Source of the DNA: Desulfosporosinus acidiphilus SJ4
GTDB taxonomy: Bacteria; Bacillota; Desulfitobacteriia; Desulfitobacteriales; Desulfitobacteriaceae
Direction of reading: 5' to 3'
Length of the DNA: 64,000 bases
Assembly: GCF_000255115.2 (NCBI RefSeq)
Contig: NC_018068.1
Coordinates: forward strand, 2,203,977-2,267,976
The notes under the pieces: generated by a model
The model's database searches: none
What the model saw: the letters and a program-made list of their open reading frames with translations, nothing else
What the model was told of the DNA's origin: nothing
Translations under genes and position numbers: made by a program
Part shown: positions 34,457 to 59,023 of the stretch, one piece after another
Layout: each line of letters begins with the position of its first letter
How positions within the stretch are numbered: position 1 is the first letter of the stretch

Positions 34457-35290
34457 CTACTTGCCTCCATAAAGGAACTTTAATTCTTCCTCTTTCATCG
34501 TAAAGCTGTGCTGGTCATCTGGGAAAAGCTCACTACGTATTTCATGTACATATGTTCTTAAACCGTTGGTAATTTGCTTATTAATATCAGCATAGGGTTT
34601 AACAAACTTCGAAACACGTTCTATACCATAAGTGAGAATATCATGGTAAACAAGCACTTGGCCATCAGTATGAACCCCTGCCCCGATCCCTATTGTAGGG
34701 ACTGTCAATAATGAAGATATTTCCTCAGCGAGTTGTTTGGGAACACATTCGAGCAAAACCGCAAATGCCCCTGCGTCTTGGCAGCGCTTGGCATCTTCGA
34801 CGATTTGCCGGGCACTTTCGGCGTCTTTACCCTGAACTTTAAATCCGCCAAGGACTCCCACTGATTGGGGAGTAAGTCCCAGATGAGATATAACAGGTAT
34901 ACCGGCTTTTACAAGTGCTTCAATATGTTCAAGCACTTTGTCAGCTCCTTCAACTTTAACAGCATGAGCACCGGTTTCTTGAATAAGTCTGGCTCCATTT
35001 ATAAGTGTATCCCTAATTGAGAGATGATAACTCATAAAGGGCATATCCACTACAATGAAAGTATCACAAGCCCCACGTTTTACAGCCTTAGCATGATGAA
35101 TCATGTCCTCCATCGCCACATAGACGGTGGAATCATATCCTAGTACAACATTGCCCAAAGAATCACCTACAAGAATCATATCAACATCTGCTTGTTCGGC
35201 CAGCTTGGCTGAGGGATAATCGTAGGCGGTTACCATAACAATCTTTTTTCGTTGGTTTTTCATTTCCAAGAAGTCTTTTGTGGATTTCAT
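34457..35290 (-). CDS. panB: 3-methyl-2-oxobutanoate hydroxymethyltransferase (ketopantoate hydroxymethyltransferase)
   Basis: A 277-residue TIM-barrel enzyme making ketopantoate from alpha-ketoisovalerate and methylene-tetrahydrofolate, the first step of pantothenate synthesis. Family sequence is clear: [16 protein letters not shown] near the N-terminus, the Mg site region [15 protein letters not shown] (about residues 42-56), [19 protein letters not shown] (about 136-154) and [15 protein letters not shown] (about 201-215). The start at 35290 follows AGGAGGAG; an adjacent ATG at 35293 is equally possible. panC and panD are not adjacent. Its leader carries a terminator-like hairpin with a T7 run (35334-35364), suggesting attenuation. 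Confidence 0.93.
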
Positions 35291-35333
35291 CATTTCTCCT
35301 CCTTTTTTCAGGAGAGGCGAGAAACAAGTTAAC

Positions 35334-35364
35334 AAAAAAAGTTCCTTTAACAGAAGGAACTTTT
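35334..35364 (-). promoter_or_regulatory. Attenuator-like terminator in panB leader
   Basis: AAAAGTTCCTT and its exact complement (35337-35347, 35354-35364) form an 11-bp stem followed on the minus strand by seven T (35334-35340), about 45 nt before panB. Upstream, at 35370-35425, lies CCTG-TTA-CAGG and other short complementary pieces. In Firmicutes, panB genes are sometimes preceded by the pan RNA motif; I cannot verify that structure by eye. Confidence 0.55.
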
Positions 35365-35568
35365 AAATATAACAGTTTCATCCCTCTGTCCTTGCCTGTA
35401 ACAGGTCTAGGCAGAATCACTTAAATTTTTTGGATACCATTTAGGTGCAGTTCAAATGATACTGCCCAAAATGAGTATATCAGGTTACTTGTGTCTTGAC
35501 TATTACTAAATCCTTTTTAAATTAAAGTAGTATGGCCACGTAATTATCAAATATGGCATCTGATATTA

Positions 35569-56825: not shown

Positions 56826-57563
56826 TTAGTGGAGAAAGGGAAAGGCAAAAAAAAGGAAAAGTACTTCAGAAAGTTCAATGATGGAACCGTATAGATCACC
56901 TGTTAATCCACCTAAAAGGGAGGTGACTCTATGTGCCCAAAGGATGACTGCAGCAACACAGATGAAAAATGAGACTAGGCCGGCAATGCCGGTTAAGAGG
57001 TAAGAAATTAGGCAAACAAAGCCGCCTGAGATAAGAAGGGTCAGCCATTGAGTTGCTTCATGAAATCCTTTGCCTAACCCCTGAGGTCGAGCATAAGGGA
57101 AGGCAATGACACCGATTTGAAAGACCCAACGGGAAAACATGGGCATTATTAGGAGGAGGGGATATTTGGAAGGAGTTAAACTGGCCAGCAGGGAGAATTT
57201 GAGCAAAAGTAATCCTACTAGAGCCATGGATGCATGAGCTCCCACTCGGCTGTCCTTCATGATCTCCAAGATCCGTTCCGGGCTTCGAGCAGACAATAAC
57301 CCATCCATGCTGTCCATAAAACCATCGAGATGGAGTCCACCTGTAAGTACAAGTTCACCAACTAAGAGCATGGAGCCCAGCACCAGAGGCGGAAAATAGT
57401 GGTATAATCCTTTGGCTATAAGCCAGAGGAAGAAACCTATAACGAGCCCTACCAGTGGATAATAACGATAACTTCCGGCAAATTCCTCGGAAGTCACCTC
57501 TACCTCAGGGGAAGGTAAAGGAAGTCTGGTTAAGAACGTGAGAGCAATGAGAAATCCTCGCAT
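56826..57563 (-). CDS. cobS: Adenosylcobinamide-GDP ribazoletransferase (cobalamin synthase)
   Basis: A 245-residue membrane protein with about seven helices and the CobS signatures TFLTRLPLP near the N-terminus, GLHLDGFMDSMDGLLS (about residues 75-90, the Asp-rich Mg site) and RVGAHASMALVGLLLL (about 105-120). It joins alpha-ribazole (phosphate) to adenosylcobinamide-GDP, the last assembly step of cobalamin. It starts 3 nt after cobU ends, so the two are coupled. The operon is under the cobalamin riboswitch at 58591. Confidence 0.93.
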   Translation of the reverse strand: MRGFLIALTFLTRLPLPSPEVEVTSEEFAGSYRYYPLVGLVIGFFLWLIAKGLYHYFPPLVLGSMLLVGELVLTGGLHLDGFMDSMDGLLSARSPERILEIMKDSRVGAHASMALVGLLLLKFSLLASLTPSKYPLLLIMPMFSRWVFQIGVIAFPYARPQGLGKGFHEATQWLTLLISGGFVCLISYLLTGIAGLVSFFICVAAVILWAHRVTSLLGGLTGDLYGSIIELSEVLFLFFAFPFLH

Positions 57564-57566
57564 AGG

Positions 57567-58199
57567 CTACCTCTCCTTGTGCAGAGAAGAGAGCAGGGTC
57601 TCAGCAGGCTTCTTGATTTCCATAGGAAGACCTGCAATCACCCAATAAACTCTACCTGCTTTTTTGGCAAGCGCTTGATTACATCGTCCGGCTAAATCCC
57701 GGTATGCTCGAGACAAAGGGTTTTCCGGAACAATACCTTGTCCAACTTCGTTCGTTACAAAAATGACGATTGGTTTAATTTCTTGGGCTATTATTGCTGC
57801 CTCTTGAACTATTGTCAGGATTTTTACTTCAATTTGTTCATATATGCTCTGATCAAACTGAGGGGTCGTCTGCCCAGCCTGGTGTGTTTGTTCAGGCTGT
57901 TCGGCAAGCAGAAGGTTTGTGAGCCAGAGAGTGACGCAATCCAGTAGAATAACTCCTTCGTCATTTTTTAGTTTGAGCAAGGTTTCTCGAATATTCAAGG
58001 GCTCTTCGATCAACTGCCAAGCAGCAGGCCTTTGAAGCTGATGCTTTTTGACTCGAGAAGCCATTTCTTCGTCCCAGATTTGAGCCGTTGCAATATAGGT
58101 TACAGGCAGGTTGGGAGAAGCACTATGAGCTGCTAATAGTTCGGCAAAACTGCTTTTACCGCTACGTGATCCTCCTGTGATAAGGGTAAATTGAGACAT
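57567..58199 (-). CDS. cobU: Adenosylcobinamide kinase/guanylyltransferase
   Basis: A 210-residue enzyme with the P-loop LITGGSRSGKSSFAE at the N-terminus, the GTP/GMP-binding His-containing segment (VKKHQLQRPAAWQLIEEP, about residues 50-67) and LLDCVTLWLTNLL (about 83-95). It phosphorylates adenosylcobinamide and adds GMP, giving the substrate for CobS encoded next. It starts 100 nt after the truncated cobT stop. The ribosome site upstream (GGGGAG) is somewhat distant. Confidence 0.93.
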   Translation of the reverse strand: MSQFTLITGGSRSGKSSFAELLAAHSASPNLPVTYIATAQIWDEEMASRVKKHQLQRPAAWQLIEEPLNIRETLLKLKNDEGVILLDCVTLWLTNLLLAEQPEQTHQAGQTTPQFDQSIYEQIEVKILTIVQEAAIIAQEIKPIVIFVTNEVGQGIVPENPLSRAYRDLAGRCNQALAKKAGRVYWVIAGLPMEIKKPAETLLSSLHKER

Positions 58200-58299
58200 T
58201 AGATTTCAACGACTCCCCTCATTGTCAGATATATTAATCCTATAGATGTGGATCTAAACTTATTTTTCGCTGCCCCCCGCATCTCTAAAGGTTGCTATC

Positions 58300-58475
58300 T
58301 CATTCAGAATGTGTAAGCACATCGAGCCCCTCTGTAATAATATTATACACCATTTGGGGAGTAACTTCTTGAGGAAAGGCATTAACGCCTTCTTCGACCA
58401 CACCATGATCATCAGCCATTAAAAGAACAGCTTTTTTCTTGATTCGGGGCTGAGAAGTTCGCTGAATTCCTCCAA
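58300..58475 (-). pseudogene. cobT: cobT fragment
   Basis: From TTG 58475, behind AAAGGAGG, the frame reads [15 protein letters not shown], then needs one extra A in an A6 run to continue as [19 protein letters not shown] and [13 protein letters not shown] before stopping. This is the family segment around residues 60-100 of nicotinate-nucleotide:dimethylbenzimidazole phosphoribosyltransferase (about 350 residues). Both the N-terminal part and about 250 C-terminal residues are missing. It occupies the first position behind the riboswitch. The frameshift alone could be a read error, but the truncation could not. Confidence 0.82.
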
Positions 58476-58505
58476 GCTTTTTCCTCCTTTATTGAATTGG
58501 ATAGC

Positions 58506-58551
58506 AAAAAGGCAAAGTCCCGCCACAAATCAATGTGGTCGGGACTTTGCC
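58506..58551 (-). terminator. Riboswitch-controlled intrinsic terminator
   Basis: GGCAAAGTCCCG (58511-58522) and CGGGACTTTGCC (58540-58551) with an inner CCACA/TGTGG form a 17-bp stem with one bulge. On the minus strand five T follow (58506-58510). It sits 40 nt after the riboswitch and 30 nt before the cobT remnant, the expected off-state terminator. Confidence 0.9.
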
Positions 58552-58590
58552 ATCGTCACCGACGCTTCCCAAGGTTTGGGAAGCCGTCAA

Positions 58591-58779
58591 CATTTTAGGC
58601 AGGTCTCCTGGCTATCGAATCATCGCCGTTTCGCAGCCTTCCCGGCTTAGGCCAGTGGTCAGCGAGGCTCCTCGACTACAGTGGTGGGTCCGCGTCGGTT
58701 TTTACTATCAGAAAGCATAACTTTCAGCTGGTTTGCTTTATCCGAACTTCCCTATTCTCCCCAAAGGGCACCTAAAATG
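58591..58779 (-). ncRNA. Cobalamin (adenosylcobalamin) riboswitch
   Basis: On the minus strand the order is AGGTGCC, then a GGGAA element, GCGGACCCACCACTGTA, GCCGGGAAGG and the B12 box AGCCAGGAGACCTGCC (58598-58613). The outer P1 stem is CATTTTAGG (58771-58779) with CCTAAAATG (58591-58599). All conserved parts of the class are present. It controls the cob genes to its left through the terminator at 58506. Confidence 0.95.
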
Positions 58780-59023
58780 GATTAATTTCCAATAGAATAT
58801 CACATTAATTGGTAATTCTCAAGAAGTAATGTGATAATTGGATTATCTCTCACGGATGTCTTATTTTACTAAAAAATAAATTGTATATATAATAAACTAT
58901 GACATAAAAAACGTATAATATAAATTGATTAAAAATAATTAATCAATGAATCAATAAGAATGAAATATTTAGAAAGGAAAAGATTAGGTTAGATGATTAA
59001 CTTAACCTAATCAGGAGAGTGTC

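Follow-up and report, generated by a model that had tools for sequence, protein, structure and literature searches.

CobT (nicotinate-nucleotide:5,6-dimethylbenzimidazole phosphoribosyltransferase; PF02277, TIGR03160) is the closest described counterpart of the two loci considered here: a remnant derived from CobT in a cob operon of Desulfosporosinus acidiphilus SJ4 (genome G000), and a complete CobT encoded at a second locus behind a cobalamin riboswitch. Unlike an ordinary cobT locus, the operon holds a fragment only, and the presumed working copy belongs to a non-native lineage. In two lineages of the genus, a resident gene is lost and a homologue of foreign lineage is found, which resembles the pattern termed xenologous gene displacement; our case differs in that the unit has its own foreign-type riboswitch and landed outside the old operon (in G000 and G024). 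ArsAB of Sporomusa are likewise CobT homologues that activate lower-ligand bases, but they are encoded by two adjacent genes, whereas one full-length gene was found here. The BzaA-BzaB route of anaerobic benzimidazole synthesis is matched by two tandem ThiC-like genes behind a cobalamin riboswitch (L155), but with no BzaD above cut-off this is probably not a full route to 5,6-dimethylbenzimidazole. In the open-licence literature, we found no papers on Desulfosporosinus with cobT and none joining xenologous, cobalamin, and riboswitch; the accessible part of PMC10378866 (Desulfosporosinus, cobamide, lower ligand) makes no mention of cobT. The locus adds one more instance to an evolutionary pattern that is already known. 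It offers a clear, small case of one pathway gene apparently displaced together with its riboswitch in two lineages, and for this sulfate reducer it yields a prediction of the cobamide that can be tested. It also cautions that a broken cobT in an otherwise intact operon is not the same as a broken or altered cobamide pathway, the missing step being encoded elsewhere here.

The window is the whole stretch of 64,000 nucleotides that was analysed (G000:C3:2203977-2267976). The assembly comprises 4.99 Mb in 3 contigs with 99.99% completeness, and the operon (window positions 56826-58790) lies on the 4.93-Mb contig. Read from right to left, its minus-strand order is riboswitch, terminator hairpin, cobT remnant, cobU, and cobS:

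58581-58790, minus strand: cobalamin riboswitch of the cob operon, intact (RF00174; cmscan 82.5 bits, gathering score 31.5)
58511-58551, minus strand: intrinsic terminator hairpin 3′ of the riboswitch (fold and U-rich tail)
58260-58483, minus strand: cobT remnant (pseudogene), composed of a core, a possible scrap, and a tail
58483-58338, minus strand: remnant core, 146 nt, corresponding to cobT nt 156-301 (120 of 146 bases identical to L007, 82%)
58337-58316, minus strand: possible scrap, 22 nt, corresponding to cobT nt 707-728 (weak, 15 of 22 bases identical to L007)
58315-58260, minus strand: C-terminal tail of cobT, from nt 1019 (alignment to L007)
57567-58199, minus strand: cobU (adenosylcobinamide kinase/guanylyltransferase), complete, 210 aa (NF004469 195.4 bits, cut-off 161)
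56826-57563, minus strand: cobS (adenosylcobinamide-GDP ribazoletransferase), complete, 245 aa (TIGR00317 119.6 bits, cut-off 110)

The above-threshold riboswitch match spans the entire RF00174 model (positions 1-189 of 189), and the leader shares 89% identity with its D. acididurans counterpart. The 66-nt fold of the terminator has an energy of −34.9 kcal/mol (z −7.48), and none of 200 shuffles folded equally well. At the DNA level, cobU is 76% identical to cobU of the D. acididurans locus L007, and the sequence 5′ of its start is conserved in the alignment. For CobS, the Pfam model also scored well above its cut-off (188.1 versus 23.2), while the top-scoring model, NF001278, remained below its own (165.1 versus 252). 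The RF00174 match, the fold z score, NF004469, and TIGR00317 thus bear out the sequence-only reading in that riboswitch, terminator, cobU, and cobS are all intact. One arm of the riboswitch at 58581-58790 is ~30 nt longer than in D. acididurans, with a similar score. Elsewhere in the window, a pan motif RNA (RF01749, 61.5 bits; 35382-35468) lies 5′ of panB (34457-35335), an ordinary arrangement, and no tRNA genes were found.

Between the riboswitch and cobU there are cobT fragments alone. They were aligned to the cobT of D. acididurans M1 (L007, genome G001), which is intact and has 359 codons. Relative to it, stretches of ~164 nt (with the start), ~405 nt, and ~290 nt (nt 729-1018) are missing, ~0.86 kb in total. 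The 22-nt scrap may be a chance match, as protein alignments running into it suggest; in that case, there were two deletions, not three. PF02277 matches the remnant at profile positions 35-85 of 329 (E 5.1e-14). The original start and about the first 50 codons are absent from the core, and the locus fails as a CobT, having neither a full-length open frame nor the catalytic Glu region. The initial description of a cobT cut to a fragment behind an intact riboswitch is therefore right as to the remnant but not as to the frameshift that it placed in an A6 run: the frame of the core is open across this run (58432-58437), the 48-residue reading is uninterrupted, and the frame changes at the last deletion junction, 5′ of the 17-residue tail.

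To find other sources of CobT, the whole genome was searched with PF02277. Three matches were obtained: a full-length gene (C3:3555815-3556822, 437 bits), the remnant, and a sub-cut-off match of 10.5 bits. The first of these, located 1.29 Mb from the remnant, is the second cobT whose existence had been suggested from the window, and it passes the TIGR03160 cut-off:

G000:C3:3555800-3556915 (L004 7798-8916): cobT2, full-length CobT, 372 aa (TIGR03160 429.7 bits, cut-off 319.3)

The gene has its own cobalamin riboswitch and terminator hairpin. Glu338 of the encoded protein, CobT2, aligns with residue 317 of the 1d0s chain, a glutamate that we take to be catalytic. CobT2 is predicted to be active and to form alpha-ribazole phosphate; it probably supplies the missing CobT step, leaving the pathway intact.

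The two loci differ in their affinities. The remnant core matches CobT of G022 at 41 of 48 residues and those of G001 and G017 at 40 of 48 each, compared to 34 of 48 for the CobT2 of its own genome, and is by this comparison of the native (genus) lineage. A native-type cobT, 55-60% identical to CobT2, is found in 27 of the 29 genomes of the genus, the exceptions being G000 and G024. In G024 and G035, a single cobT each was found, with 86% and 83% identity to CobT2, respectively; G035 belongs to a different genus of the same family. Identities of 74-81% were observed to cobT of 9 of 25 genomes of family f3 (including one gene truncated at a contig edge). One of the native genes, cobT of G022 (L056, G022:C25:7368-8450), has a single in-frame TGA, which is either an error or early decay.

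A CobT tree was built from 40 sequences representing 39 of the 45 genomes of the family. G010, which has an additional, distant cobT, is represented twice; G019 (a native cobT in two pieces at contig ends, left out of the trees), G040 (a fragment), and G037 and G042-G044 (no match) are not included. G000, G024, and G035 grouped together (100/100), apart from the 26 native sequences. Constraining the genus to be monophyletic lowered the log likelihood by 169 (p-AU 7.5e-10), and the constraint was rejected; without G024, the decrease was 160 log units (p-AU 8.1e-12). In the CobU+CobS tree (38 rows, without G019 and without G036 and G040, whose CobS is missing or short), the genus (28 rows) is monophyletic (100/100), G000 groups with G001 and G017 (100/98), G024 with G007 (100/100), and G035 with genus g3 (100/98). 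The phylogeny of CobT2 therefore conflicts with that of the host, as judged from the two trees and the AU test, the host reference being CobU+CobS rather than a genome-wide tree. By these affinities, CobT2 is foreign to the genus.

An enlarged CobT tree included 12 of 28 newly searched genomes (G059, with a CobT2-type gene cut by a contig edge, was among those left out) and came with a long-branch warning among the most distant rows. In this tree, 11 CobT2-type sequences (8 from f3, 2 from the genus, and G035) formed a clade (100/100) whose sister group is genus g3, from the same family as the window. The fork among G000, G024, G035, and the two f3 groups was unsupported, while the smaller tree paired G024 with G035 at 96/85. 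These trees leave several candidate donors, and transfer between the families could have run in either direction. In all eight f3 loci fetched, the CobT2-type gene stands behind a cobalamin riboswitch, and no relatives of the window's CobU or CobS were found in the 6-8 kb around these genes. In G035, the gene precedes cobU-cobS; a search of the gap between cobT and cobU for a relic of the native gene gave none (best E 0.52).

The second genome of the genus with the foreign gene presents a similar picture. The old operon of G024 contains the riboswitch, a terminator-like repeat (identified by eye), and cobU; the gap between riboswitch and cobU is 171 nt, and tblastn detected no trace of cobT in it (best E 0.06). 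The foreign riboswitch-cobT of G024 is on another contig, in surroundings that differ from those in G000. Since G024 is a metagenome-assembled genome (MAG) that is 79% complete, the absence of a native cobT elsewhere in it is not certain. As far as the two assemblies reveal, G000 and G024, which do not group as sisters by CobU+CobS, share both the foreign gene and the loss that goes with it. In a MAG of another genus (G040; L027 265-405 = G040:C20:9046-9186), the last ~47 residues of cobT precede cobU, with 264 further bases upstream; this is either a truncated gene or an assembly fault near the contig end.

Decay of the operon copy, the presence of the second gene, its foreign affinity, and the pattern of loss can be read from the sequences, and we consider it very probable that the native cobT became a pseudogene after the acquisition of a foreign riboswitch-cobT unit that took over the CobT step. 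As to the order of events, the activity of CobT2, and the ligand, we infer the following course. The lineage would have acquired a self-contained riboswitch-cobT unit from outside the genus; once this unit had taken over the CobT step, the native gene would have decayed through two or three deletions. The genes for CobU and CobS would have stayed in the old operon, behind its original riboswitch, and alpha-ribazole phosphate would come in trans from CobT2, the most likely substrate being 5-hydroxybenzimidazole produced by BzaA-BzaB.

The same distribution could arise by descent if the ancestor of the family had both types of cobT and most genomes lost one of them, without any transfer. The operon position of the CobT2-type gene before cobU in G035, a member of the family, is in keeping with such ancient paralogy, and since G035 goes with g3 on CobU+CobS and the CobT2 clade goes with g3 on CobT, a vertical origin in G035 is possible. 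We nevertheless regard this explanation as unlikely for the genus: it requires that 27 of 29 genomes lost the CobT2 type, leaves CobT2 closer to a gene of another genus (83%) than to the native copies of its own (55-60%), and has to accommodate two carriers that are not sisters and whose cobT2 genes lie in different surroundings.

We also considered that the remnant is retained because it serves some purpose itself, for example as a short peptide or as an RNA spacer that enables cobU translation. The conserved riboswitch, terminator, and sequence 5′ of cobU, together with the need of cobU for some leader, would fit this proposal, but the core is without the original start codon, and in G024 no cobT sequence can be recognised between riboswitch and cobU, so that we give it very little credence. 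Relative to L007, 15 codons of the core differ synonymously and 8 non-synonymously, compared to 14 and 7 between two intact genes. No long relaxed drift is thus visible, because the decay is recent or because a stretch of 48 codons is too short to reveal it. That the operon cobT is truly whole and was broken by sequencing or assembly is hardly conceivable, even though our view is that of the assembled sequence: the two or three deletions, which together amount to ~0.86 kb, are found within a single contig of 4.93 Mb, their flanks align, the cobU start is conserved, and a second genome, G024, lacks cobT at the same place. The remnant is a real pseudogene, and since two or three deletions, two of them spanning hundreds of bases, are not base-calling errors, re-sequencing is unlikely to restore the gene.

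We next considered what the displacement means for the cobamide. The genome contains nine cobalamin riboswitches. Among corrin-ring genes, CbiD, CbiE-CbiT, CbiL, CbiF, CbiH, and precorrin-6A reductase score above family cut-offs, CbiG-like and precorrin-8X-methylmutase-like proteins match below theirs, and the genome probably builds the corrin ring itself. Of the two ThiC-like genes at L155, the second encodes BzaB (789.7 bits, cut-off 700), and the gene before it is called bzaA by position only. A model search of the genome revealed no BzaD above cut-off; for BzaC, BzaE, and BluB, the analysis covered the neighbouring ORFs. BzaA and BzaB alone lead to 5-hydroxybenzimidazole. The set of bza genes predicts the lower-ligand base, as described in the accessible part of PMC6461909, and by this rule bzaA-bzaB without bzaD predicts 5-hydroxybenzimidazole as the ligand.

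The suggestion that the cobamide of this host could differ from cobalamin may thus be true, though not for the reason given, the loss of cobT: the ligand appears better predicted from bzaA-bzaB without bzaD. D. acididurans (G001, L184), with its native cobT, likewise has bzaA-bzaB, with no bza-like neighbour seen by eye, so this prediction is independent of the cobT swap. BzaB above cut-off is encoded in 22 of the 29 genomes of the genus, including G000. A link between the cobT swap and bza genes was sought and not seen: G024 (79% complete) and G035 have no BzaB match, while G000 has bzaB. According to the accessible part of PMC6389850, several bases can serve as lower ligands in Desulfitobacterium hafniense, among them purine and benzimidazoles that are added; with such flexibility, components of the medium could change the cobamide product.

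The distant cobT of G010 (L124 6614-13134) lies in a run of riboswitch, cobS-like gene (by eye), cobT, methyltransferase/DUF2284, BzaD, and radical SAM genes, and the native operon cobT is retained. In G030 (G030:C47:7503-8700), a cobT fragment (45%) is located beside fragments of ThiC/Bza-like genes, perhaps a decayed lower-ligand cluster.

A phenolyl cobamide made by ArsAB, also raised in the sequence-only reading, would be expected to involve two adjacent CobT homologues of 300-800 aa, by which putative ArsAB are recognised in the accessible part of PMC6461909. ArsA and ArsB are indeed homologues of CobT, and one solved CobT chain (6b5f, 232.6 bits) matches CobT2 no better than ArsA does (233), so that the score alone is not decisive; the phenolic ligand is nonetheless scarcely credible, since the PF02277 search of the whole genome found no tandem pair but one full-length gene and a remnant 1.29 Mb apart, CobT2 exceeds the CobT equivalog cut-off, and the seven best solved chains are all CobT (best 263.9 bits; ArsB 186).

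Finally, we analysed the site where cobT2 resides. Its leader is 78% and 83% identical to the cobT leaders of G035 and G024, respectively, compared to only 58-68% for five operon leaders of the genus (the window, G024, D. acididurans, strain PR, and D. hippei). The leader has the same foreign affinity as the gene, which indicates that the riboswitch arrived along with it. In G000, cobT2 lies directly upstream of a riboswitch-controlled ECF transporter operon and is thus flanked by two cobalamin riboswitches (L004 7591-9192 = G000:C3:3555590-3557191). The S component of the transporter is present in 18 of the 44 other genomes, and cobT2 was absent from all eight of those loci that were fetched. 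The homologous DNA of G017 (92%) starts at the ECF riboswitch. A TTGACA element precedes this riboswitch in all five loci aligned, of the eight fetched, and is absent in G000. No promoter-like site was found by scanning between cobT2 and the ECF genes on that strand; such scans are weak and carry little weight, as they returned no more sites, or little more, than shuffled sequences. Transcription of the ECF genes may therefore start at the cobT2 promoter and pass both riboswitches in series.

The ECF riboswitch of G000 bears a cobT-type arm instead of the native arm, followed by native ECF sequence, and the two L004 riboswitches share 67 nt at 91%. Given these features, insertion by a single crossover between riboswitches is conceivable, but cobT2 is preceded by a promoter and leader of foreign appearance, and a single crossover within the riboswitch would not yield this. 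A tandem-repeat scan of L004 added nothing. More tentatively, and with doubt outweighing confidence, the unit could be a portable riboswitch-cobT cassette among related Clostridia that arrives whole and lands in unrelated places, the resident operon cobT being gone in both carriers of the genus. In G000, it would have displaced the ECF promoter, placing riboswitch, cobT, riboswitch, and transporter on one transcript, and it might alter which lower ligands the cell attaches.

The S component itself (L004 4682-5212, 176 aa; 19 of 45 genomes of the family) has no Pfam match even at E 10 and no NCBIfam match at 0.001, and is followed in G000 by UbiD-like and hydantoinase-A-like genes. In G010 (L182 4192-4365), a group II intron D1-D4-3 match (RF02001, 97 bits) is located between the ECF cobalamin riboswitch and the ATPase gene.
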